The position numbers were made by a program, and so were the translations under genes. DNA of 37,967 nucleotides from Halorubrum persicum (GTDB taxonomy: Archaea; Halobacteriota; Halobacteria; Halobacteriales; Haloferacaceae): positions 1-37,967 of the forward strand of contig NZ_NHOA01000088.1 of assembly GCF_002727125.1 (NCBI RefSeq). The letters run 5' to 3'. The notes under the pieces are model-generated. The model searched no databases, was not told the DNA's origin, and saw only the letters and a list, made by a program, of their open reading frames with translations. The stretch's first letter is position 1. The number at the start of each line of letters is the position of its first letter. Positions 1,455 through 37,935 of this stretch are shown here, piece by piece.

Positions 1455-1600
1455 CAGCTGTCACCCCCGTCTGTGACCGTACAGTTGCGTACCGTGCTGT
1501 GTCGCGGCTCAGTTCGGGTGGGTACCGGTGGACAACGAGAGAGTCGGTGGAGAAACGCTCGTGAGTGGTGCTGTTCCATCGATAGAATAACGAAACTCAA

Positions 1601-1610
1601 TATTTATATA
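1601..1610 (+). promoter_or_regulatory. TATA box of queD
   Basis: TATTTATATA lies 22-31 bases before the ATG at 1632. This spacing puts the transcript start on or next to the start codon, as in leaderless haloarchaeal genes, and it decides the queD start. Earlier in-frame starts would lie upstream of the TATA box. Confidence 0.7.
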
Positions 1611-1631
1611 TTCCCCGAATATTCTTCGAGT

Positions 1632-2093
1632 ATGGCCCGAAGTATATCAAGAGATGAGTCCGAAGCGGTTGCGCTTCGGGAAGCAGGCCAACGAATACTC
1701 CAAATCGGAGCAGATAACCCGATTCGGATCAGTTCGGGCCATCGAATTCGCCATCACGACGGGAAGTGCTCACGACCACACGGCCACAACTACGAGATCG
1801 CCGTCGAAGTGACCGGCGAACTCACCGAAGAGGGATGGGTCGTCGACAAAGGCGATGTCACGGACGTCATCGACGCGTGGGATCATCGGTTCCTCGTTGA
1901 GGAAGGCGACCCGCTTGTCGACGCGTTTGAGGCGTCTGGAGATGGCGACGCACTCGTCGTCTTGGATCACCCACCGACGGCAGAGGTGATGAGCGTCCTG
2001 CTCGAACAACGTATGCTCGACGCCTTCCCAGACACGGTCTCAGACGTGTCGGTGTCGGTGAGCGAAACGGGCGAACTCTGTGCAACCTACTAA
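1632..2093 (+). CDS. queD: 6-carboxytetrahydropterin synthase (QueD/PTPS family)
   Basis: A 153-residue protein that converts dihydroneopterin triphosphate to 6-carboxytetrahydropterin, the first committed step to preQ0. Zinc-binding histidines are visible in SGHRI and HGHNYE. The catalytic cysteine sits in GKCSRPHGH, and DHRFL plus PPTAEVMS are the other family signatures. The length is normal for the family. The start was set at the ATG 22 bases after a TATA box. The stop overlaps the ATG of queE (TAATG), so translation is probably coupled. Together with queE and queC it makes preQ0 for archaeosine. The GTP cyclohydrolase that supplies the substrate is not in this window. Confidence 0.92.
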   Translation: MARSISRDESEAVALREAGQRILQIGADNPIRISSGHRIRHHDGKCSRPHGHNYEIAVEVTGELTEEGWVVDKGDVTDVIDAWDHRFLVEEGDPLVDAFEASGDGDALVVLDHPPTAEVMSVLLEQRMLDAFPDTVSDVSVSVSETGELCATY

Positions 2094-2869
2094 TGCCGGT
2101 CGCAAGTGACGTCGAGGAGCGCGCAACGGACGATGACGCGTCTGGTGAAGGACTCCCGATCAACGAGGTGTTCTACTCGTTGCAGGGTGAGGGAACGCTT
2201 GCTGGCGTGCCTTCCGTTTTTGTGCGGACGTCTGGGTGTAATCTGCGTTGTTGGTTCTGTGATTCGTACCACACATCGTGGGAGCCGACCGGGGCTTGGC
2301 GCGACGTCGACTCGATCATCGAGGAAGTCCAATCACACGAGCAGGCTGGCCACGTTGTGCTCACGGGCGGGGAGCCGCTCATCCACGAGGAGTCCGTCGA
2401 ATTGTTAGAGCGACTCGCCGCAGATGGGTATCATACGACGGTGGAGACGAACGGGACGATTTACCGGGATGCGCCGATAGATCTGGCGAGTATCAGCCCG
2501 AAACTGGCGAGCAGCACGCCGACGCCGGATCGTGACCCGAAAGGCGACGGCGAATGGGAGGAGAAACACGAAGAGAATCGGATTGACATGGACGCGTTGT
2601 CCCGCATGGTGGATGCATACGAGACGCAACTGAAGTTCGTCGTGACGGATGAGTCGGATCTGTCAGAGATTACGGGCCTAGTTGAGCGGGTGAGGGCGGC
2701 GACGGCGACGACCGTCGCGGACGATGACGTGTTGTTGATGCCGGAAGGCATGACGCGGGAGCAACTCGATGGGACGCGAAGCAAGGTCGCCGAGTTAGCG
2801 ATGGAGTACGGCTACCGGTACACACCTCGACTCCACGTCGACTTGTGGAACGACGCCCCGGGGACATGA
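2093..2869 (+). CDS. queE: 7-carboxy-7-deazaguanine synthase, radical SAM
   Basis: A 258-residue radical SAM enzyme that contracts 6-carboxytetrahydropterin to 7-carboxy-7-deazaguanine. The FeS-cluster motif CNLRCWFC (CxxxCxxC) lies at about residues 50-57. It is preceded by NEVFYSLQGEG, the typical N-terminal QueE signature, and followed by the glycine-rich VLTGGEPL SAM-binding segment. The start codon overlaps the queD stop by one base. The C-terminal half contains an insertion rich in E and D (about residues 140-170), consistent with halophilic adaptation. It is the second gene of the queDEC unit. Confidence 0.93.
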   Translation: MPVASDVEERATDDDASGEGLPINEVFYSLQGEGTLAGVPSVFVRTSGCNLRCWFCDSYHTSWEPTGAWRDVDSIIEEVQSHEQAGHVVLTGGEPLIHEESVELLERLAADGYHTTVETNGTIYRDAPIDLASISPKLASSTPTPDRDPKGDGEWEEKHEENRIDMDALSRMVDAYETQLKFVVTDESDLSEITGLVERVRAATATTVADDDVLLMPEGMTREQLDGTRSKVAELAMEYGYRYTPRLHVDLWNDAPGT

Positions 2870-2977
2870 GCGTCGTAGACAGCCCGATCGAAGTCGTGTG
2901 GTGCCGCGAGGCCCGCGTGGGTGTCGTACGCAGCGTGGTGTACAGAGCGACAATCGATTCGACGCAACTGAGCAGAT

Positions 2978-3667
2978 ATGAGCAACAATAGCGCGGTAAT
3001 TCTGGTGTCTGGAGGGATGGATAGTGCGACGGTTGTGTACGAGGCGATGGAGCAGGGGTACGAGCCGTACTTCCTGCACACATCGTATGGGCAACGTACG
3101 GAAGACAAGGAGTTCGAGTGTGCACAAGCACTTGCTGACGAGGTCGATGCGGCTGACTTCCTCCATATTGAAACAGGGCACCTCGCTCAAATCGGTGCGT
3201 CGAGTCTGACGGACGAAGAGATGGACGTGGCTGATGCGGATCTTGAGAGTGACGAGATCCCGACATCGTACGTTCCTTTCCGGAACGCGAATCTGTTGTC
3301 GATGGCGACATCGTACGCGGAGGCAACTGACTCGGAGGCGCTGTTTATCGGCGCACACTCAGAAGATTTCTCCGGGTATCCCGATTGTCGCCCCGCCTTT
3401 TTTGACGCCTTTCAGAACGTAATCGATGTCGGCACGAAACCCGAGACGGATATCGAGTTGAGGGCGCCGTTCGTCGAGTGGTCGAAAACGGAAATCGCAG
3501 AACGTGGATTGGAACTCGGCGTGCCGTACGAGATGACGTGGTCGTGTTACCGGGATGAGGAGCCGGCATGCGGAACGTGTGATGCGTGTGCGTTCCGGCT
3601 TGAAGCATTCCGGAGTGCTGGGTCACGTGATCCGATCGCGTACGCAGAGAGACCTGATTTCTCGTAA
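2978..3667 (+). CDS. queC: 7-cyano-7-deazaguanine (preQ0) synthase
   Basis: A 229-residue ATP-dependent enzyme that turns 7-carboxy-7-deazaguanine and ammonia into preQ0. The PP-loop ATP motif SGGMDSAT is near the N-terminus. The C-terminus has the four-cysteine zinc site (CYRDEEPACGTCDAC). The gene lies 108 bases after queE on the same strand. The gap is unusually long for this operon and could hold its own promoter, but I see no strong TATA box. It completes the preQ0 pathway. The downstream transglycosylase and amidotransferase for archaeosine are not in the window. Confidence 0.94.
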   Translation: MSNNSAVILVSGGMDSATVVYEAMEQGYEPYFLHTSYGQRTEDKEFECAQALADEVDAADFLHIETGHLAQIGASSLTDEEMDVADADLESDEIPTSYVPFRNANLLSMATSYAEATDSEALFIGAHSEDFSGYPDCRPAFFDAFQNVIDVGTKPETDIELRAPFVEWSKTEIAERGLELGVPYEMTWSCYRDEEPACGTCDACAFRLEAFRSAGSRDPIAYAERPDFS

Positions 3668-3988: not shown

Positions 3989-4140
3989 GTTTTCGGACGT
4001 TTCCGGAAACAGTGTATTCCACGATGAGAATCGGGGGACAACAAAGCAATTGGTAGGTATTTAGCGGCGATCAGAGCTTTTTTCGAATCTACCCAGTCAC
4101 ACTTTTATTATTTACCCAGAGTATAGTTATCCATCGATAG

Positions 4141-4764
4141 ATGATCCGCGATGCTCGCATCCTCCGCGCTGGGTTCGTCCCCCGGTAAATTGAGCATCGC
4201 GACGCTGAAGTCAACCACCTCTCCAGTGTCGATGAACCATTCACGAACAGTGAATCCGCCGACACAGCTGTCATCACCGAACCCAGCGGCGCCGGCAAGA
4301 CGTGTATCTCGAAATTCGTCACGAAACGACTTCGGCAAGAAGTCCTCGATGTCGAGGCCATATACGTCAACTGCAGGCGCAACTACGCCCGGTTCCGCAC
4401 GCTCTACCAGATTCTTGACGACCTCGGTGCCACCATCGACATCCACCGGCAGTCGACGCCGCGCGACGAACTCGTCAACCGGTTCCAGCAACACGATGGT
4501 CCGCGAACCGTCGTCATCCTCGACGAAGTCGACCAGCTCGAAGACTCCAGCGATATCTACGACCTCCACAGCCTCCCGCAGTTCGCAATCATCTGGATCG
4601 CGAACAAGGAAGAGGAGCTGTTCAGCCGCGTCGACGACCGCCTTGTGAGCTGTCTGCGCTCCAGCGAGCATGTCCGGACGGACAAGTACCACAACGAACA
4701 GCTGTACGACATCCTGAGTGCTCGCACGAAGTGGGGGGCTCGCCGAGGACGTCATCCGATGTGA
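4141..4764 (+). pseudogene. Broken orc1/cdc6-type replication initiator (N-terminal AAA+ part)
   Basis: One plus-strand frame reads MIRDARILRAGFVPR, then an in-frame TAA at 4186-4188. The same frame then continues for about 190 codons: VNHLSSV, a Walker A (EPSGAGKT, where the family usually has GPSGAGKT), a Walker B (VVILDEVDQLE), and a sensor region with IWIANKEEELFSRVDDRLVS. This is the N-terminal AAA+ half of an Orc1/Cdc6 protein. After KWG the frame slips by one and the reading changes to GLAEDVI, which begins the open frame of the polymerase relic. The lid and winged-helix domains are absent. The gene is therefore dead by a nonsense codon, a frameshift and loss of its 3' half. It lies 1.4 kb from the intact orc1/cdc6 gene and is a different lineage from it. 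Confidence 0.8.
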
Positions 4765-5819
4765 CTGCCACAGCGACCGCAACGTCGTCCCCGGCCTCGG
4801 GTACTCGATCTGCGACGACCGGGGTTACCTCGTCGACGTCCTCCAGCCGATCATCGACGCCCGCGGCGAGATTAAGACGGCCATCCGTCGCGAGAAGGAA
4901 GGGGACAACCGCGAGGAGGACCGACTGGCGGAGCTCGAAGGGCGGTCGGGAGCGCTGAAGTGGATTCTCGTCGCCTGCTTCGGCTATCAAGGGTTCAGCA
5001 ACGCGAAGTTCGGGCGCATCGAGTGCCACGAGGCAATCAACGCGTTCGCTCGCGAGATTCTGCTGAAGGCGAAACAGCGGCTGGAAGCTGGCGGCTGGCG
5101 GGTCGTTCACGGCATCGTCGACTCCATCTGGGTGACCCCCGACCCCGACATCGACGACGATGCCCGCGAAAACCTCGAGGCCCTCCCGACGGAGATCGCG
5201 GAGCGTGTCCCGGTTCGGCTCGAACACGAAGCCCACTACGACTGGGTGGCGTTCGTGCCGCAGCGCGAGAGCGCCGCCGGCGCGTTGACGAAGCACTTTG
5301 GTAAAGTGGCTGGTGAAGACGAATTTAAAATTAGAGGGATCGAAGCCCGGCAGCGCTCGACCCCGCCATTCATCGAGAACGTTCAGCGGGACTGTCTCGA
5401 CCGACTTGATTCCACGCGGTCGCCGGATGCAGTCCTCGACAGACTCCAAGAGGCGACCAATCGGCTCCATGCAGGACAGTGTCGGTCGATGCACTCGTCG
5501 AGCGGAATCGCGTGTCAAGCCACTCGACGGATACACCCAGAATACGCAGAACGTGGCGGCATTAAAGCGCGCTCGCGAGCAAGACCTCGGCGTCCACCCC
5601 GGACAGGATATCGAGTACGTGGTTGTCGATGACGAGAAATCCTCACGGGACCGTGTCGCCCTCGCCCACGAAGCAATCGAGACCTACGACGCCGCGTACT
5701 ACGTGACCCAACTCGTCAGAGCTGTCGAAAGCGTGCTGTCCCCCCCCGGGTGGGATCGGACCGATATCCGACGAGAACTTGATGGGATACGAGTACGTGG
5801 TATCACGGACTGGACCTGA
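4765..5819 (+). pseudogene. 3' fragment of a B-family DNA polymerase gene, frameshifted
   Basis: From about 4790 the frame reads GLGYSICDDRGYLVDVLQP, then ALKWILVACFGYQGFSNAKF (the finger/palm motif B region), EAINAFAREILLKAKQRLE and HGIVDSIWV (motif C position). This is the C-terminal third of a haloarchaeal PolB; the N-terminal exonuclease part and motif A are missing. The frame changes at about 5478 (to VSVDALVERNRVS) and again at about 5512 (to KPLDGYTQNTQNV), and ends with SVLSPPGWDRTDIRREL. At motif C the usual DTD appears as IVD, so only the last aspartate remains; archaeal PolB groups with degraded active sites are known. It is fused directly to the cdc6 relic, which points to a deletion joining two replication genes. 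Confidence 0.8.
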
Positions 5820-5820
5820 C

Positions 5821-6128
5821 CACCCCCGTTTTTCGGGTTGTAAATGGGATAGGGATACGGTGGACACCCCTATTTCGTGTTGTAAGACACCCCTATTTCG
5901 AGATGTAAATATGGCTCCTACACCCTCTACAGCCCACCTACCCAGTATTCCAGCCTGACGGACGATGTCCAAAGACGCCTACTCGAAACGAAGGCAGCAG
6001 CGAATCGCGATGAACATCCACTTGTGAGTACATCGCAAAACACACCCCCCTATTTCGAGTTGTAACGCGAACGGCCGCTCCCGTGTCGAAGATCGATATC
6101 CGAGGCACACCCCTATTTCGAGTTGTAA
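5821..6128 (+). repeat. Origin-type direct repeats, downstream cluster (five copies)
   Basis: Copies lie at 5821-5843 (divergent), 5864-5885, 5887-5908, 6042-6065 and 6107-6128. The core is CCCCTATTTCGAGTTGTAA, all in the same orientation. The second and third are spaced by one base. The stretch 5820-6164 between the polymerase relic and orc contains these repeats and no gene. On the other strand each copy ends in a run of G, like origin recognition boxes of haloarchaeal Orc proteins. They lie beyond the 3' end of the initiator gene. Confidence 0.85.
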
Positions 6129-6164
6129 ACGAAAGGGGGAAAATCGGAGGCCGCAGTCGGGACT

Positions 6165-7598
6165 CTAGTTCAGGAACCCGTTCATTTTCGATTTTGCGAT
6201 AGACCGCATCATCTCTTCTTCCTGTTCCAGGTTAGCAAAACGATCGTCCTCTAGGATTCGTTCCATAATCGACTCAGGGTCTTCAGCGAGGTCGAAGTGC
6301 ATGTGGATGCCTTTTCCCCGTCCTCGACCGCGACGGTCGAACTCAAGGATACCATAGGTCGCCTGTTCGGTAACATGGTTCACGAAGGTTTCTCGCCCAT
6401 AGGAGTCAGCCCCGAGGGAGTCACAGACGAACTGATAGAGGCTGTAGGAGGGGCCGGCCGGAGTCCAGTCCACACCGGCATTTGAGTAGTAGTCTGTCGC
6501 AGCAACGGCGAAGATGCAGAGCTTCTTTTGTGTCGAGAGGCCACCGATATGTCGTAATTTCCGATCGGAGTCGTATCGGTCCTGGGCAGTCCGGACATGC
6601 GATTCTTCGACACGCTCGTCTCCCTGTTTATCGGCTAATTCCCCAGACCACCGAAGCAGATCGATAGCCTTCCGTGCATCACCGTGTGTCTGAGAGCCGA
6701 ACGCGGCGACGAGTGGGACAACATCATCCGCGAGCGCCTCAGTCTTGAAGGCGTCTTCACGATTGCGGAGGATATGTCGAAGTTGCGTTGCGTCGTAATC
6801 CTCGAAGAAGATCTCGTCTGGATTGAATGAGCTATTCGCGCGGCTATTGAGATCAGACATGAAATTGACGTAGTTGGTTATCGCAGTGACGGAAACTGGG
6901 CCATCAAAGCGGCCGAGGTCTCGAGCCCGCGAAAGCTGATAGAGTAGTGAATTATATTCTGGTTCCGAGTATGGGCCGTCGAGCATGTCGACCTCGTCTA
7001 AGACGAAAATTACGCCGTCATAGTGTTCGCGCATGATTTCCCATAGACGCTCGAGTTTCTGGTCTGTCGAGACCCCACTCTCGGGGACACCCGGTTCTTC
7101 ATCGATATTTGCCGTCGCCTCTTGAATAAGACGATAGACGGCACGACTGGTCGTACCTGGACCCTCGCAGTTTATTGAAAACACACCGAACCGCATTCCT
7201 TGAGCCTCACTCAGCTCGACGATTTTCTTACAGACCGCATGGATAATCAGGGATTTCCCTGTTCCAGACGGCCCAGTGAGCAACATCTCCGGAATTCCGT
7301 GGTCTTGGAGAGCGGGTTTGAGATTTGTGATGACGGTCTTCAACTGCTCATCGCGACCAACGATCCGATCTTCGTCGATGATAGTATCCGGGCGAACCAA
7401 ATCCTTGTTCTCGAAGACGGTCTCAACAGATTCAGATTGGAGCTCGTCCATAATCGAGATCCCGCTACCAGAATCGTCGAGCGTAGTTTGACTGCTGGTA
7501 GACTCCTCGGAGTTACTCTCTCCGCGCTTTCCGGGAACCTCCGTTATAGATTCAGACTGTTCCGTCTGGTTATCTGTACCCGGCGATTCATCACCCAT
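6165..7598 (-). CDS. orc1/cdc6: Orc1/Cdc6 replication initiator
   Basis: A 477-residue AAA+ initiator that binds origin repeats and recruits the replicative helicase. The N-terminal 60 residues are polar and probably disordered. Then come Walker A GPSGTGKS (109-116), Walker B IFVLDEVD (197-204), sensor 1 TAITN (about 238-242) and sensor 2 GDARKAID (306-313). The C-terminal 130 residues fit the winged-helix DNA-binding domain. The ATG at 7598 was chosen because a TATA box lies 23-32 bases upstream; a longer frame to 7640 would run across that box and into an origin repeat. The same repeat family flanks the gene on both sides, so this protein is probably their specific binder and may repress itself through the copy at 7639-7657. 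Confidence 0.93.
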   Translation of the reverse strand: MGDESPGTDNQTEQSESITEVPGKRGESNSEESTSSQTTLDDSGSGISIMDELQSESVETVFENKDLVRPDTIIDEDRIVGRDEQLKTVITNLKPALQDHGIPEMLLTGPSGTGKSLIIHAVCKKIVELSEAQGMRFGVFSINCEGPGTTSRAVYRLIQEATANIDEEPGVPESGVSTDQKLERLWEIMREHYDGVIFVLDEVDMLDGPYSEPEYNSLLYQLSRARDLGRFDGPVSVTAITNYVNFMSDLNSRANSSFNPDEIFFEDYDATQLRHILRNREDAFKTEALADDVVPLVAAFGSQTHGDARKAIDLLRWSGELADKQGDERVEESHVRTAQDRYDSDRKLRHIGGLSTQKKLCIFAVAATDYYSNAGVDWTPAGPSYSLYQFVCDSLGADSYGRETFVNHVTEQATYGILEFDRRGRGRGKGIHMHFDLAEDPESIMERILEDDRFANLEQEEEMMRSIAKSKMNGFLN

Positions 7599-7620
7599 AC
7601 CCCAATCCTCTGTGGGCCTA

Positions 7621-7630
7621 CTATAAATAA
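7621..7630 (-). promoter_or_regulatory. TATA box of orc1/cdc6
   Basis: On the minus strand this reads TTATTTATAG, 23-32 bases before the ATG at 7598, giving a leaderless transcript. A degenerate origin repeat (7639-7657) abuts it upstream, where bound Orc protein could block or modulate transcription. Confidence 0.65.
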
Positions 7631-7638
7631 GTAAAGGC

Positions 7639-7813
7639 AACCTATTTCGATTTGTAATCTCGAAGATTCACCCGGTGGAGTTACTGAGTCGGTAGTTTTC
7701 CCATTCTAAGTGTTGAACCGACTTCGATGCAGAGACGCACCCCTATTTCGAGTTGTATAATCGTGTCAAAGGTTAAATCAAATCCAGCCACACACCCCTA
7801 TTTCGAGTTGTAA
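7639..7813 (+). repeat. Origin-type direct repeats, upstream cluster (three copies)
   Basis: Copies at 7639-7657 (degenerate), 7738-7757 and 7792-7813 share CCCCTATTTCGAGTTGTA with the cluster on the other side of orc. All point the same way. No gene lies between 7599 and 8428; this 830-base stretch is repeats, the AT-rich core and promoters. Confidence 0.82.
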
Positions 7814-7986
7814 CGGATTGGGAGGCTCTAACACGGTTTTGAGATATTCTCAACGCCCAGTCTTGTCATATCAATTGGATTGATTGGAAGTAGTTCAGCC
7901 CACCCGTCGAGAATTCACCCAAGAAAAGACACGCACCATCCTCGAAGGCCAGCTTGACCCGTGCTCCTTGGGAGAGTCCCCACACT

Positions 7987-8360
7987 CCCACCCCTTTTTC
8001 GAGTTGTAACGCACAACAGCGGGAGGGACAGATGAGCTGTTAGACGAGAACGAAACACCACTGACCTGCGGTAGAGAGCTTCATACAGCGATTTTCACGG
8101 TGTTTTCTCGGACAAGCCTTCGTTGATCCTACTACTCACAGATACGTAATATTACTTACGTATTGTTCGTAGGAGTTGCACAGTACGGATACTGTTCTAC
8201 ACCATAGATAATAAAGATTCCTATCTCATAGTCTTTGTTGGATTTCGTGGTAAGGAGGCGTGATTCGTCTGAAAACCGGCTATTCGAGGTGTTTGAGCTT
8301 TCTTCGGCTTTCTCCCTCCCCCACCCTTGTTCTGTTACAACTCGAAAAAGGGGTGGGGGT
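7987..8360. other. Putative replication origin core: AT-rich stretch between inverted repeats
   Basis: The repeat at 7987-8009 (CCCTTTTTCGAGTTGTAA) recurs inverted at 8335-8360. Both share a TTTTT variant and an extended G/C-string not seen in the other copies. Between them is an AT-rich region, most marked at about 8140-8225, with a perfect inverted repeat: ATACGTAA at 8142-8149 and TTACGTAT at 8156-8163. An AT-rich unwinding element flanked by inverted origin boxes next to an orc1/cdc6 gene is the standard architecture of haloarchaeal origins. That this is the active origin is inference from layout. Confidence 0.75.
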
Positions 8361-8428
8361 GTCGCCAACCTCTCGAGACAGGACCTCACTCGAGTTTAAA
8401 TACCAATCCGCGGCTAAACGGATTACTC

Positions 8429-9115
8429 ATGTCTAACCAACCGACACCCCGTTCGACACCGATTCGGACGCCTCCTCAACCACGCCGCTTTACTCTCCTG
8501 TCACCGCCACAAACATCTACCACGCCGTTTCAGACCTCGGCTACCCGACCGAGTACGTCCCGATTGTCGCCCGCGCCCTTGACGAGTTCCAACTCGCTAT
8601 TTCCGCTGCTACCAACGGTCACTTCCTCCTCGACCAGCTCGTGCCACAAGCCGAATGCTTCGAGATCTTGGACGTCGACCACGTCACCGGGCCCATCCGC
8701 CTTGAGGATCTTTTGTTCTTCAGCGGCCCCTACGCGATGACGATTCTCACAGACGCGTCGGTGCCATAGATGACGGGGACGTCGTGGAGAACGGACAGAA
8801 ACCTGAGGGTGTCAGTTACCGATTCGTCTCTGGTTGCTCCTGCCCACTCACGAGAGTCTCGGCACACTCGACGAGGTCGTCCTCTGATGTCCACTGACAG
8901 AGACGCCCAGCATCGTCGAGGAGGTACTCCTGCCAGAGGACCGCCGACAGAACGATTTGCCGTACAAGTTCTATGGGATTAGCGAGAGTGGTCGACAGTT
9001 CCTCGAGGAACACAAACTCCTTCGAGCGCAGGATACACTCCGAGATATCTACGCCCGTGTGGAGAAGACCGACGACATCGAACGCTACGAAACTGCGCCG
9101 CGACCCAAGCGCTGA
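8429..9115 (+). pseudogene. Frameshifted relic of a haloarchaeal winged-helix-type gene
   Basis: An ATG at 8429 (MSNQPT) is followed, after a one-base slip before 8452, by a long sensible frame: FDTDSDASSTTPLYSPVTAT, then GYPTEYVPIVARALDEFQ, ending at a TAG at 8767. The reading resumes in another frame as DDGDVVENGQKPEGVSYRFV and SGCSCPLTR. A last in-frame block (about 8918-9115) reads LPEDRRQNDLPYKFYGISES, then RQFLEEHKLLRA, and ends KR-stop. The final block resembles the C-terminal part of haloarchaeal winged-helix regulators (YKFYGLTE...GRxFLEEH). At least two frameshifts and stops make it a pseudogene. Whether all three blocks came from one gene is likely but not proven. Confidence 0.55.
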
Positions 9116-9120
9116 AAACC

Positions 9121-9162
9121 TTAACCAACAGAGCGGAAGAAATCCAACATCTCGTTGGTTAA
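9121..9162. repeat. Boundary palindrome, copy 1 (TTAACCAAC ... GTTGGTTAA)
   Basis: Arms TTAACCAAC (9121-9129) and GTTGGTTAA (9154-9162) are separated by 24 bases. The right arm contains the stop codon of the ardC-like gene. Three further copies occur at 10615, 12210 and 26549. It has no T-run and the loop is long, so it does not look like a simple terminator. Confidence 0.8.
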
Positions 9163-10106
9163 CTGAATGAGGACGAGAATTCGTCCTCCAGAACGTCGAT
9201 GAGCTCCTCTGCCGTTCGACTAATCCGGTCGAGACGGTCACGAACGACTTCAGGCTCGTCCGACTCCCACGCGGCCAGGTAAAACGCTGACCCGCTCGTG
9301 TCGAGCCCGCAGTAGCGCCCGACGACGTATGCGACAGCTTCGGCCTCGACCTCGCGTTTCGACCGCTCGGTATCGTCGTCGACGTCGAAGTGGAGCAGGG
9401 CGTGGGCGTACTCGTGGATCAGCGTCCGCGCAAGGTCGGCCTCGTTCTCGCGATCACGCACCTCGACACGCGGTTGCATATCGACGAGACTCAGCTGCTC
9501 GCAGATGCCTTTCGCCTCGCCGTGCGTCCACTCCGCTTCCGGAACGATCCGAACCGTCACGCCAAGTTCGTCGGCGGCTCCAGTCAGCCGACCGACGAGG
9601 TCGCCGGCGTCCCCGGTCGCTTCTGTGTCCAGGTCGGGAAGCGGCTCGCCCTCGGTCTGGGAGACGTCGAACACGGGCGCGGGCTTGAACCCGACCAGCC
9701 CCTCCGACCACTCTTCGGGCGGCGTCTCGTCGTACGCACAGTCACTGTCCTCGTGGTAGCTCGGCGAGTTCTCGCACTCCGGGCACTGCGTGGTGATGAT
9801 CGGCGCCCAGATCCAGATGGCCGACTCGCCTTCCTGGACGTGGCGGTCGAACTCTTCTTGCCACCTCCGGTAGCCCGCCACCCGGCTCGCCTCGGGATAC
9901 TGGCGCTTGATGAGGAGCGTATTCCGGTAGGAGTAGTCGTGGAAGCGACTCTGGACGTCGAGCCACTCCTGAAACTCCGCGCTGGTCTGTGCATCGTCGA
10001 TGCCGGTGACGAGGTCGTCAATCCACTGTTCGATCGTACTGTTCATCTCGTCGGATCGCGTGTCGGTCTGGTCGAAGGAGACCGACGAGTCACTGCTCGT
10101 AGCCAT
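9159..10106 (-). CDS. ArdC-like antirestriction / ImmA-IrrE-type metallopeptidase
   Basis: A 315-residue protein with the architecture of ArdC. The N-terminal domain (about 25-150, with YSYRNTLLI and a CPEC...C zinc-like insertion) resembles the ssDNA-binding ArdC-N domain. The C-terminal zinc peptidase domain has HEYAH at 231-235 and a following EAEAVAYVV helix carrying the likely third ligand. ArdC proteins protect incoming plasmid DNA from restriction. The ATG at 10106 has a GGTGA Shine-Dalgarno seven bases upstream. An upstream TTG at 10118 would lie before that site. It is the last gene of the minus-strand array; the leader hairpin at 10150 precedes it and its stop lies in a boundary palindrome. 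A Mrr-like nuclease gene is 3 kb away. Confidence 0.85.
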   Translation of the reverse strand: MATSSDSSVSFDQTDTRSDEMNSTIEQWIDDLVTGIDDAQTSAEFQEWLDVQSRFHDYSYRNTLLIKRQYPEASRVAGYRRWQEEFDRHVQEGESAIWIWAPIITTQCPECENSPSYHEDSDCAYDETPPEEWSEGLVGFKPAPVFDVSQTEGEPLPDLDTEATGDAGDLVGRLTGAADELGVTVRIVPEAEWTHGEAKGICEQLSLVDMQPRVEVRDRENEADLARTLIHEYAHALLHFDVDDDTERSKREVEAEAVAYVVGRYCGLDTSGSAFYLAAWESDEPEVVRDRLDRISRTAEELIDVLEDEFSSSFS

Positions 10107-29235: not shown

Positions 29236-29688
29236 TTACGGTGGGTTTGATGCGCTATTCAGTCTGTCCACGTCGTCGTTTTCGTACGCTGCTCGCCACA
29301 TCGTATGGACAGCACGGGTCACGAGTGACACCTCGCTCACATCGATACAGGACGGTTCGGCTGTTGTCGTGGCTGCGTCGGGCGGTGGGTGGAAATGGAT
29401 CTCGGGAGAGTGCGTATTCGGGTGCCGATCGAACCGCCAGTTGACGTCGTCGCTATCGACGTAGTGGAACGAATACATCCCTAATTCGCTCCATTGGATA
29501 TCGAGCCGAGCGCTGGCGGCGTCGTTGAGTCCGTCGCTGAGCGTGATCTGCAGCTCCGTCGGTGCGACGACGTCATCGTACGCCGTGGCGTCGACTAACG
29601 GCTCAAGTTCGATCCAGAGATCACGTATCCGCTGGAGTGCGGGGAGATAGATCGGTCCGAACTCGCCGGCTCGGTCGTCCTCACTCAT
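29236..29688 (-). CDS. DUF6516/TumE-like toxin candidate
   Basis: A 150-residue protein. IYLPALQRIRDLWIELEPLV opens it, then LQITLSDGLNDAASARLDI, and WSELGMYSFHYVDSDDVNWR FDRHPNTHSP-type sequence with histidines (EIHFHPP). This pattern (a YSFHW-like strand followed by an R-rich, H-rich block) resembles DUF6516 (TumE) toxins. The ATG at 29688 overlaps the stop of the winged-helix gene by four bases (ATGA), the usual antitoxin-toxin overlap. An N-terminal extension to 29766 lies inside the regulator gene and is rejected. The toxin assignment is moderate. Confidence 0.6.
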   Translation of the reverse strand: MSEDDRAGEFGPIYLPALQRIRDLWIELEPLVDATAYDDVVAPTELQITLSDGLNDAASARLDIQWSELGMYSFHYVDSDDVNWRFDRHPNTHSPEIHFHPPPDAATTTAEPSCIDVSEVSLVTRAVHTMWRAAYENDDVDRLNSASNPP

Positions 29689-37027: not shown

Positions 37028-37104
37028 GGCTGTGTTGAATCGCCATACAGCAGCGGGGTAGGCCGCTAAATCAAAGGAGTTGAAGCGGGAGACTTCAGTT
37101 GTTC

Positions 37105-37935
37105 ATGACCCAAATCTCCCGCTTCATCGGGGAGGTTGTGCCGGTTGCTCAAAGAGTTACTGGCGATGGAGGCGAATCCGCCGCCCCGGACGGTGGCGGC
37201 GGATTCGCCGACTACGCACTCGTTTCCCTCCATTGTCTCCGGATTTACCTCGATACGTCGTACCGCATGACGATCGACCTCCTCAAAGAGATGCCACAAA
37301 TAACCGGAGAGATCGGCCTCAGCGCGGCCGATCTCCCCGCACCGTCCACGTTGTGTAAGGCGTTCGACCGGATCAGCATGAGCGTCTGTCGAGTGCTGCT
37401 GCGCCAGTCGGCGCAGCTACACGATCTCTCTGAACACGCCGCGATCGATGCCACGTTCTACGACCGCTCACCAGCCAGCCGCCACTACTGCCAGCGAATC
37501 AGCTACCGCGTTCAAAAGCTCAAGGTTACGAAACTCGTCGATACAGCGTCGCAAGCCGTCCTTGACGTTCACTGCTCAACGAATCGAAAAGGAAGCGACG
37601 CAGACCTCGCTGAGCAGATCGCCCGCCGGAACGCGGGCGATCTGCGGTCTCTTGCGGCCGATAAGGGCTACGACAAGCAATCGCTCCGCGAAGGTCTGCG
37701 TGAGTTCGGGATCAGACCGCTGATCAAGCACCGCATCTTCGCACCGTACGACCACGCACACAACGCCAGAATCGACGATAACAGCTACAACCAGCGCTCT
37801 ATGACCGAAACCGTGAACTCGGCTGTCAAGCGCTCGCTCGGCTTCGCCGTGCGAGCGCGGTCGTGGTTCCGTGAGTTCCGCGAAATCGCGCTGATGTGTG
37901 TCGTCTATAACATCAAACGCTTCGTCAAACAGTGA
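37105..37935 (+). CDS. IS5-family transposase (DDE)
   Basis: A 276-residue DDE transposase. The first aspartate is in HAAIDATFYDRSPASRHY, the second in LAADKGYDKQSL and the glutamate in MTETVNSAVKRSLG, the spacing of IS5-type haloarchaeal transposases. The N-terminal third (QISRFIGEVVPVAQRV) holds an HTH-like region. The ATG at 37105 was preferred to a TTG at 37099. The coding sequence contains three long perfect inverted repeats, which is unusual. The gene is intact, so the element could still be active. Confidence 0.9.
   Translation: MTQISRFIGEVVPVAQRVTGDGGESAAPDGGGGFADYALVSLHCLRIYLDTSYRMTIDLLKEMPQITGEIGLSAADLPAPSTLCKAFDRISMSVCRVLLRQSAQLHDLSEHAAIDATFYDRSPASRHYCQRISYRVQKLKVTKLVDTASQAVLDVHCSTNRKGSDADLAEQIARRNAGDLRSLAADKGYDKQSLREGLREFGIRPLIKHRIFAPYDHAHNARIDDNSYNQRSMTETVNSAVKRSLGFAVRARSWFREFREIALMCVVYNIKRFVKQ
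37171..37209. repeat. 15-base perfect inverted repeat inside the transposase gene
   Basis: GGCGAATCCGCCGCC (37171-37185) and its exact reverse complement (37195-37209), spacer nine bases. It encodes a glycine- and alanine-rich stretch (GGESAAPDGGGGFAD). Confidence 0.85.
37309..37335. repeat. Ten-base inverted repeat inside the transposase gene
   Basis: GAGATCGGCC (37309-37318) and GGCCGATCTC (37326-37335), spacer seven bases. Confidence 0.8.
37614..37645. repeat. 13-base inverted repeat inside the transposase gene
   Basis: GCAGATCGCCCGC (37614-37626) and GCGGGCGATCTGC (37633-37645), spacer six bases. Confidence 0.85.

Follow-up and report, generated by a model that had tools for sequence, protein, structure and literature searches.

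The initiator gene and its repeats

The window, by which we mean the whole stretch of 37,967 nucleotides of Halorubrum persicum DNA analyzed here, contains an orc1/cdc6 initiator gene with ten ORB-like repeats (ORBs) around it, five on each side, between positions 5823 and 8355 (Table 1). The gene product matches TIGR02928 (E 1.2e-106) and carries the Pfam domains Cdc6_lid, Cdc6_C, and AAA. At 477 aa, it is longer than the 300 aa that we asked of an initiator, and it has the AAA+ and C-terminal winged-helix domains. Full-length relatives at 98% identity exist, archaeal Cdc6 homologues (2qby and 2v1u) come closest among solved structures, and no relative was found in IMG/VR. Initiators scoring above the NF001625 cut-off were taken as oriC1 type; the window initiator, with 230 bits against a cut-off of 501, falls outside that type, and the gene of its own genome that does score above the cut-off sits on another contig.

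Table 1. Features of the origin locus (positions in the window)
Feature	Positions	Strand	Basis or remark
Broken family-B DNA polymerase (polB) gene, 3' end adjoining the last downstream ORB	4736..5819	+	Pfam DNA_pol_B
Downstream cluster ORB, 5th, TTTTT variant, adjoining the polB tail	5823..5843	+	consensus scan
Downstream cluster ORB, 4th	5865..5885	+	consensus scan
Downstream cluster ORB, 3rd	5888..5908	+	consensus scan
Downstream cluster ORB, 2nd	6045..6065	+	consensus scan
Downstream cluster ORB, 1st	6108..6128	+	consensus scan
orc1/cdc6 initiator gene, 477 aa, ATG start at 7598	6165..7598	-	profile matches
ORB beside the orc promoter	7637..7657	+	consensus scan, 5 mismatches
Upstream accessory ORB	7738..7758	+	consensus scan
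Upstream accessory ORB	7793..7813	+	consensus scan
Gene-proximal member of the inverted ORB pair (TTTTT class with a long C-string)	7989..8009	+	consensus scan
Origin core (putative unwinding segment) between the pair, common orientation	8010..8334	.	325 bases
G-rich inverted repeat just inside the ORB pair, arm GGGAGGGA	8021..8028	+	direct reading
Central dyad, ATACGTAA (8142-8149) / TTACGTAT (8156-8163)	8142..8163	.	perfect
Most AT-rich 60 bases of the core, 68% AT	8189..8248	.	
Other arm of the G-rich inverted repeat, TCCCTCCC	8313..8320	+	direct reading
Gene-distal member of the inverted ORB pair (TTTTT class with a long C-string)	8335..8355	-	consensus scan

The repeats were located with a 21-base consensus, CACCCCTATTTCGAGTTGTAA, at a cut-off of at most five mismatches, for which shuffled sequence gives an expectation of 0.05 sites; the next best site in the window has six mismatches. 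A shorter core pattern, CCCCTWTTTCGAGTTGTAA, was searched through the window's own genome (3.58 Mb in 158 contigs) at up to two mismatches. All nine sites found lie in this locus, and a reversed-pattern control returned none. The count of ten repeats on both sides of orc1/cdc6 given in the first-pass annotation is thus borne out, although the common ending described there, CGAGTTGTAA, is exact in only five of the ten. Nine repeats share one orientation and the tenth, the gene-distal one, is opposite and forms an inverted pair with the gene-proximal one. This agrees with the earlier view that two deviant TTTTT repeats are inverted, but they are not the only two, as the outermost downstream repeat is also of the TTTTT type. 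No Rfam family reached its gathering threshold in the part of the window searched (4000-10000).

Other genes of the window deserve mention. A broken second orc1/cdc6-like gene (4126-4731, + strand), covering NF001625 positions 15-230 with two stops, immediately precedes the broken polB. Genes of queuosine/archaeosine type (PTPS family, radical SAM, and QueC; 1473-3667, + strand) lie about 2 kb from this plasmid-type origin, and the contig end carries an IS5-family transposase gene (37099-37935, + strand).

A layout shared by related loci

Among plasmid records, the initiators nearest to the window's comprise four at 90-98% identity and 22 in a 60-80% band, and the 25 best records that we listed are the four plus 21 of the 22 in the lower band (65-70%). 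In nine of these 25, this locus is the sole Orc1/Cdc6-like place found by tblastn, a search that covered Orc1/Cdc6-like genes only; this fits a role as the working replicator. The locus sample consisted of the 25 plasmid records, three loci from two named genomes, and 29 from a 391-genome sample of the class. An identical layout was found in 51 loci, representing 40 distinct core segments of 313-338 bases, the window included. The shared order starts with the outer pair ORB, followed by the core, the inner pair ORB, two to four accessory ORBs, the initiator gene, and three to six downstream ORBs, and it is found in two related families, the window type and what we call the 66% family. A complete ORB pair was missing from seven loci above 60% identity (L012, L026, L013, L031, L047, L063, and L064). 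L012 and L026 are the same site, on the chromosome of Haloquadratum walsbyi J07HQW2, where the gene and its downstream ORBs remain but the core is absent. H. walsbyi J07HQW2 also has a second, truncated copy, L013.

An initiator gene adjacent to a conserved inverted pair, seen again in relatives, supports the earlier description of a complete-looking origin. To judge from these comparisons, the arrangement is a conserved haloarchaeal replicator, often carried on plasmids. Most of the ORBs point the same way and one sits at the orc promoter, as might be expected if an Orc-like transcription regulator used the repeats chiefly as operators and the locus were no origin. We regard this as highly improbable, however, since a conserved core is enclosed by a conserved inverted pair that forms its own ORB class, and since nine plasmid records have no other Orc1/Cdc6-like place in a search limited to such genes. 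GC skew along the plasmids of two relatives gave no clear origin signal: the detrended maximum falls on the origin in one, and nothing is seen there in the other.

The promoter ORB lies just upstream of a TATA-like TATAAA (7622-7627), and its offset is equal in all six window-type loci that keep the upstream side (the window, L011, and L014-L017). The earlier observation of a repeat by the orc TATA box therefore extends to relatives, and repression of orc by its own product through this ORB is plausible.

Two oddities turned up in the sample. One contig (G305:C2) holds two equal-scoring copies of the initiator gene, at 29553 and 222643, which share coordinates with the Salinirubellus salinus plasmid match H3. 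On G322:C3, which its coordinates mark as the Salinigranum rubrum plasmid, an additional two ORBs (106929 and 106984) lie far from the origin, 55 bases apart, which is also the spacing of two accessory ORBs.

Two classes of ORB and the downstream cluster

Across the window-type and 66% families, a T precedes TTTCG in 80 of 80 pair ORBs. Only 11 of 302 other ORBs have this T, 8 of 43 in the window type, where the TTTTT rule is thus non-exclusive, and 3 of 259 in the 66% family. Fisher tests of pair against other ORBs gave 3e-7 for the window type and 3e-67 for the 66% family, values that treat related, non-independent loci as separate. Because the T was required when the outer pair member was chosen, only the inner member, which was picked without this constraint, provides an independent check, and it belongs to the TTTTT class in 40 of 40 loci. 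The scan used for these class counts misses the promoter ORB in most loci. Pair ORBs are also richer in C over the 12 bases preceding the TTTCG motif. By these sequence differences, pair ORBs are a class separate from most other ORBs. In these two families, the difference is consistent and amounts to a sequence rule for annotation that separates the firing pair from the likely titration sites.

The cluster directly downstream of the initiator gene, five ORBs in about 310 bp (5823-6128), has the form of an oriC2D-type cluster. Repeats beyond the 3' end of the gene had been called less usual in the first-pass annotation. That judgment does not hold, since all 40 distinct loci that have an intact pair, the window among them, keep a downstream cluster of three to six ORBs, and Wu et al. 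report many further ORB clusters on the far side of the gene (PMC3528665, in part). Those origin families, described in 2012, likewise have family-specific ORBs on both sides of orc/cdc6, a likeness of arrangement (PMC3528665, in part). A similar order is found at oriC2-cdc6E/oriC2D of Haloarcula hispanica, which has ORBs upstream of the initiator gene and a cluster directly downstream of cdc6E, with 11 ORBs in a 722-bp region compared with five in about 310 bp here. As the passages on oriC2D in PMC3936714 describe, this element could be deleted only together with the origin, lowers the replication of an origin plasmid in experiments, and restrains the origin, likely through titration of Cdc6. 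The two loci are likened by layout, not by ORB sequence; oriC2-cdc6E is chromosomal, and its negative control is experimental, whereas ours is inferred. By analogy with these experiments of Wu et al., initiator titration is the leading reading of the downstream cluster in the window, and it is probably how the cluster acts.

We consider it unlikely that the cluster is instead a second origin or the relic of a duplicated one. Its outermost repeat (5823), which is of the TTTTT class, adjoins the polB tail; in the 66% family, it is the outer pair ORB that neighbours this tail. However, in the scan of the loci, window-type downstream clusters have no opposite-direction ORB except for one weak site in L015, the constancy of three to six copies in all 40 loci argues against a second origin, and oriC2D by itself showed no replication activity in H. 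hispanica, according to the same part of PMC3936714.

The core and its central dyad

The inverted ORBs lie in the intergenic region adjoining the initiator gene with their C/G-strings pointing outward, as at an origin. The segment between them had been described as AT-rich. Their inversion around it stands, but its AT-richness is only moderate, at 54% overall and 68% in the best 60 bases, in a window that is mostly 50-65% GC. The perfect inverted repeat that had been pointed out in the core is present (Table 1) and has counterparts in relatives. Measured in the common orientation (L021 reversed), 34 of 40 loci have their longest perfect dyad 54-58% of the way along the core, the others being L036, L044, L052, L055, L062, and L069; in 28 of 40, it lies at this position and is also longer than the best of 20 shuffles. 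Five window-type loci have the stems GATACGTAAG/CTTACGTATC or GATACGTAGG/CCTACGTATC, the window has shorter ones, and the 66% family has ATCGTCTAGCT/AGCTAGACGAT and variants.

Covariation was assessed in 29 of the 34 66%-family sequences, cut around the best dyad; L021, L038, L040, L067, and L069 were left aside, L040 and L069 having no good dyad. Stem cells pair in 91% of cases, compared with 22-44% in slid controls, and two-sided changes occupy 22 cells versus 6.9 in shuffles (0 of 500 shuffles as high). However, these changes are confined to three of 12 stem pairs, and neither such pairs (3, shuffled 3.1) nor further pair types (8, shuffled 9.1) are more numerous than in the shuffles. Consequently, the covariation is partial and suggestive, short of proof. 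When folded as DNA, five chosen examples of the dyad were more stable than shuffles (z -2.4 to -4.8; window, z -2.4). A hairpin or cruciform formed by the dyad is possibly used in origin opening, although a dimer site (a pair of protein half-sites) or self-templated repair would also produce such symmetry.

Recurrent inversion of the core

In core alignments, nine of 39 clearly scored loci match the remaining cores only as reverse complements. The scores are bimodal: reverse-complement and same-sense values are 592 and 34 for L014/L011, 554 and 43 for L032/L038, and 427 and 22 for L062/L036. L021 is a probable tenth inverted locus. A first call on its orientation, at scores of 28 versus 22, was dropped; its summed scores are 2137 reverse and 1310 same, and its dyad position, once reversed, agrees with the inverted state. 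It was excluded from the orientation counts on both trees. In three pairs compared base by base, the outer flanks are collinear at 80-97% while the inner block is reversed end to end at 86-96%, which places the breakpoints inside the ORBs. Nine orientation changes were counted on the gene tree, six of them forced by well-supported (starred) branches, and nine on the core-segment tree, five of them forced. On this phylogenetic evidence, the core has been inverted between collinear flanks in at least five to six independent events. The window has the common orientation; in the Halobaculum magnesiiphilum plasmid, its closest plasmid relative among the listed records (98% initiator identity), the core is inverted. 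Natronosalvus rutilus and Salinibaculum sp. KK48 likewise carry inverted cores. The common orientation is linked between the window-type and 66% families through L061/L017 (59 versus 19), a link that is irrelevant to the inversion calls within each family.

The exact arms of the ORB pair are 19-29 bases long in the 40 loci. Repeat arms flanking a segment can mislead assembly, and the window's genome is a draft. However, usual read lengths far exceed such arms, and the inverted loci include records that bear a complete-plasmid label (L014, L020, L059, and L062). Inverted and standard blocks have also diverged in sequence, and a clade of four loci in another family, family 4, shares the inverted state. 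We therefore consider it exceedingly improbable that the inversions are assembly artefacts across short inverted repeats.

Both the two-class ORB pattern and the core inversion are visible only by comparison and were absent from the first reading. We found no description of origin-core inversion between ORBs in a search of titles and abstract beginnings, mostly outside subscription journals, and a text search for the words inversion and palindrome in the main text of PMC3936714 found neither. Recurrent ORB-bounded core inversion is, as far as we found, an undescribed property of an otherwise ordinary origin.

Other origin families

In family 3, with a pNRC200-type initiator, a search for inverted repeats upstream of the gene found almost nothing because the pair lies downstream, where all 30 loci have it. 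Among 29 distinct cores, L154 alone is inverted (172 reversed, 19 same); its outer flank does not align with those of relatives, and collinearity is thus seen on the gene side only. The figure is rough, since low-score placements are weak (for example L163, 31 versus 19). Family 4, whose ORB is CCTCTATCGATGTGTT and which has three core ORBs, has 6 of 28 loci inverted, L175 (a cut contig) and L182 (without one core ORB) being excluded from the 30. Same-sense scores are 101 or more in standard loci and 31 or less in inverted ones; reversed scores are 30 or less and 99 or more, respectively. The family 4 tree has three orientation changes, two of them forced. None of the 29 loci of family 5 (initiators 93-100% identical) is inverted, and 28 of them have the inverted repeat.

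Chromosomal oriC1 was sampled in 20 of 39 listed genomes of the window's genus, the window's own genome not among them. All 20 loci have the inverted-pair layout and none is inverted (highest reversed score, 39); one of 190 pairs scored higher reversed, and L124 had no good partner (36 same, 24 reversed). The inverted ORB pair with outward C/G-strings is common to oriC1 and the window, and the window's G-rich inner repeat resembles the oriC1 enhancer repeat, which in H. hispanica also lies just inside the ORBs (PMC3936714, in part). In contrast, oriC1 has another ORB sequence, a shorter core (197-225 bp), and shorter arms (median 15 versus 28). With L021 counted, 10 of 40 inverted loci compared with 0 of 20 gives a Fisher p of 0.023, kinship ignored.

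Inversion occurs at differing ORB sequences (CCCCTTTTTCGAGTTGTAA, CCTCTATCGATGTGTT, and CCCGTCATCGATGTGTAA), which suggests homology between the paired ORBs as the basis, better than one dedicated invertase. A dedicated site-specific invertase that recognizes ORB-like sites and so switches the strength or direction of the origin in a regulated way would fit recurrent inversion with precise ends. We nevertheless consider it very unlikely, given those differing sites and the shared orientation of identical cores from plainly different genomes (L034/L039 and L041/L058/L060), a small sample. Of ten identical-core groups, eight look like one genome met in two collections and only those two come from plainly different genomes; the groups consequently say little about the rate of flipping. 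The shared orientation of these identical cores and the zero flips in family 5 hint, in this small sample, that inversion is not rapid. With 0 of 29 in family 5 and 0 of 20 in oriC1, it could be rare neutral history.

A probable replicator whose initiator boxes may also recombine

We consider it highly likely that the locus is a haloarchaeal extrachromosomal replicator whose ORB pair doubles as inverted repeats for the recurrent inversion of its core. As at known archaeal origins, Orc1/Cdc6 would bind the inverted TTTTT-class ORBs, with their C-strings outward, the core between them would melt, and the helicase would then be loaded. The downstream cluster and the accessory upstream ORBs may bind the same initiator and, by analogy with oriC2D, probably restrain firing by titration, and the promoter ORB probably represses the orc gene. 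The pair also provides short inverted repeats across which the core has turned round repeatedly in evolution, with homology-based recombination as the most probable route.

In accounts of archaeal origins, initiator boxes surround a segment that melts. To our knowledge, the effect of the direction of this segment is untested, and natural origins with the core both ways between collinear flanks offer a ready experiment on direction. Initiator boxes, repeated and kept alike, are also suggested to shape plasmid rearrangement. A broader idea, which we hold tentatively and think rather unlikely, is that ORBs are recombination sites and that many haloarchaeal secondary-origin cores flip in living populations, with orientation altering origin strength, fork direction, or initiator expression.

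The polB tail and the whole block

The whole ori-orc block may flip likewise, which is conceivable because two related families differ in which end of the ORB array adjoins the polB tail. In the window, the broken polB consists of three pieces with 75-85% identity to the L053 polymerase. Where the match reaches the last codons, the polB end is about 10-30 bases from an ORB. In the window type, polB lies beyond the last downstream ORB in five of seven distinct loci (the window, L012, L014, L016, and L017; L011 and L015 were negative, and the truncated L013 was excluded), and in the 66% family it lies beyond the outer pair ORB in 29 of 34, with no match in L021, L043, L044, L052, or L066. No polB match in the swapped position was found in either family. 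For the larger REARRANGEMENT, this placement would fit one inversion of the whole block between ORBs; being a single difference between two families, it is weak evidence.

In many relatives, the last 40-100 polB codons persist beside the terminal ORB, although the remainder of the gene gave no match there. This tail may belong to the origin, or exchange may occur preferentially at it.

A polB gene also ends beside the ORB-like repeats of another Orc1/Cdc6 in the window's own genome (L003, on contig C18). With its counterparts in other genomes (L200-L222), this protein is 98-100% identical across six family codes of the sampled class, which suggests a recent, wide spread of the replicon, and most copies have an inverted repeat pair upstream.
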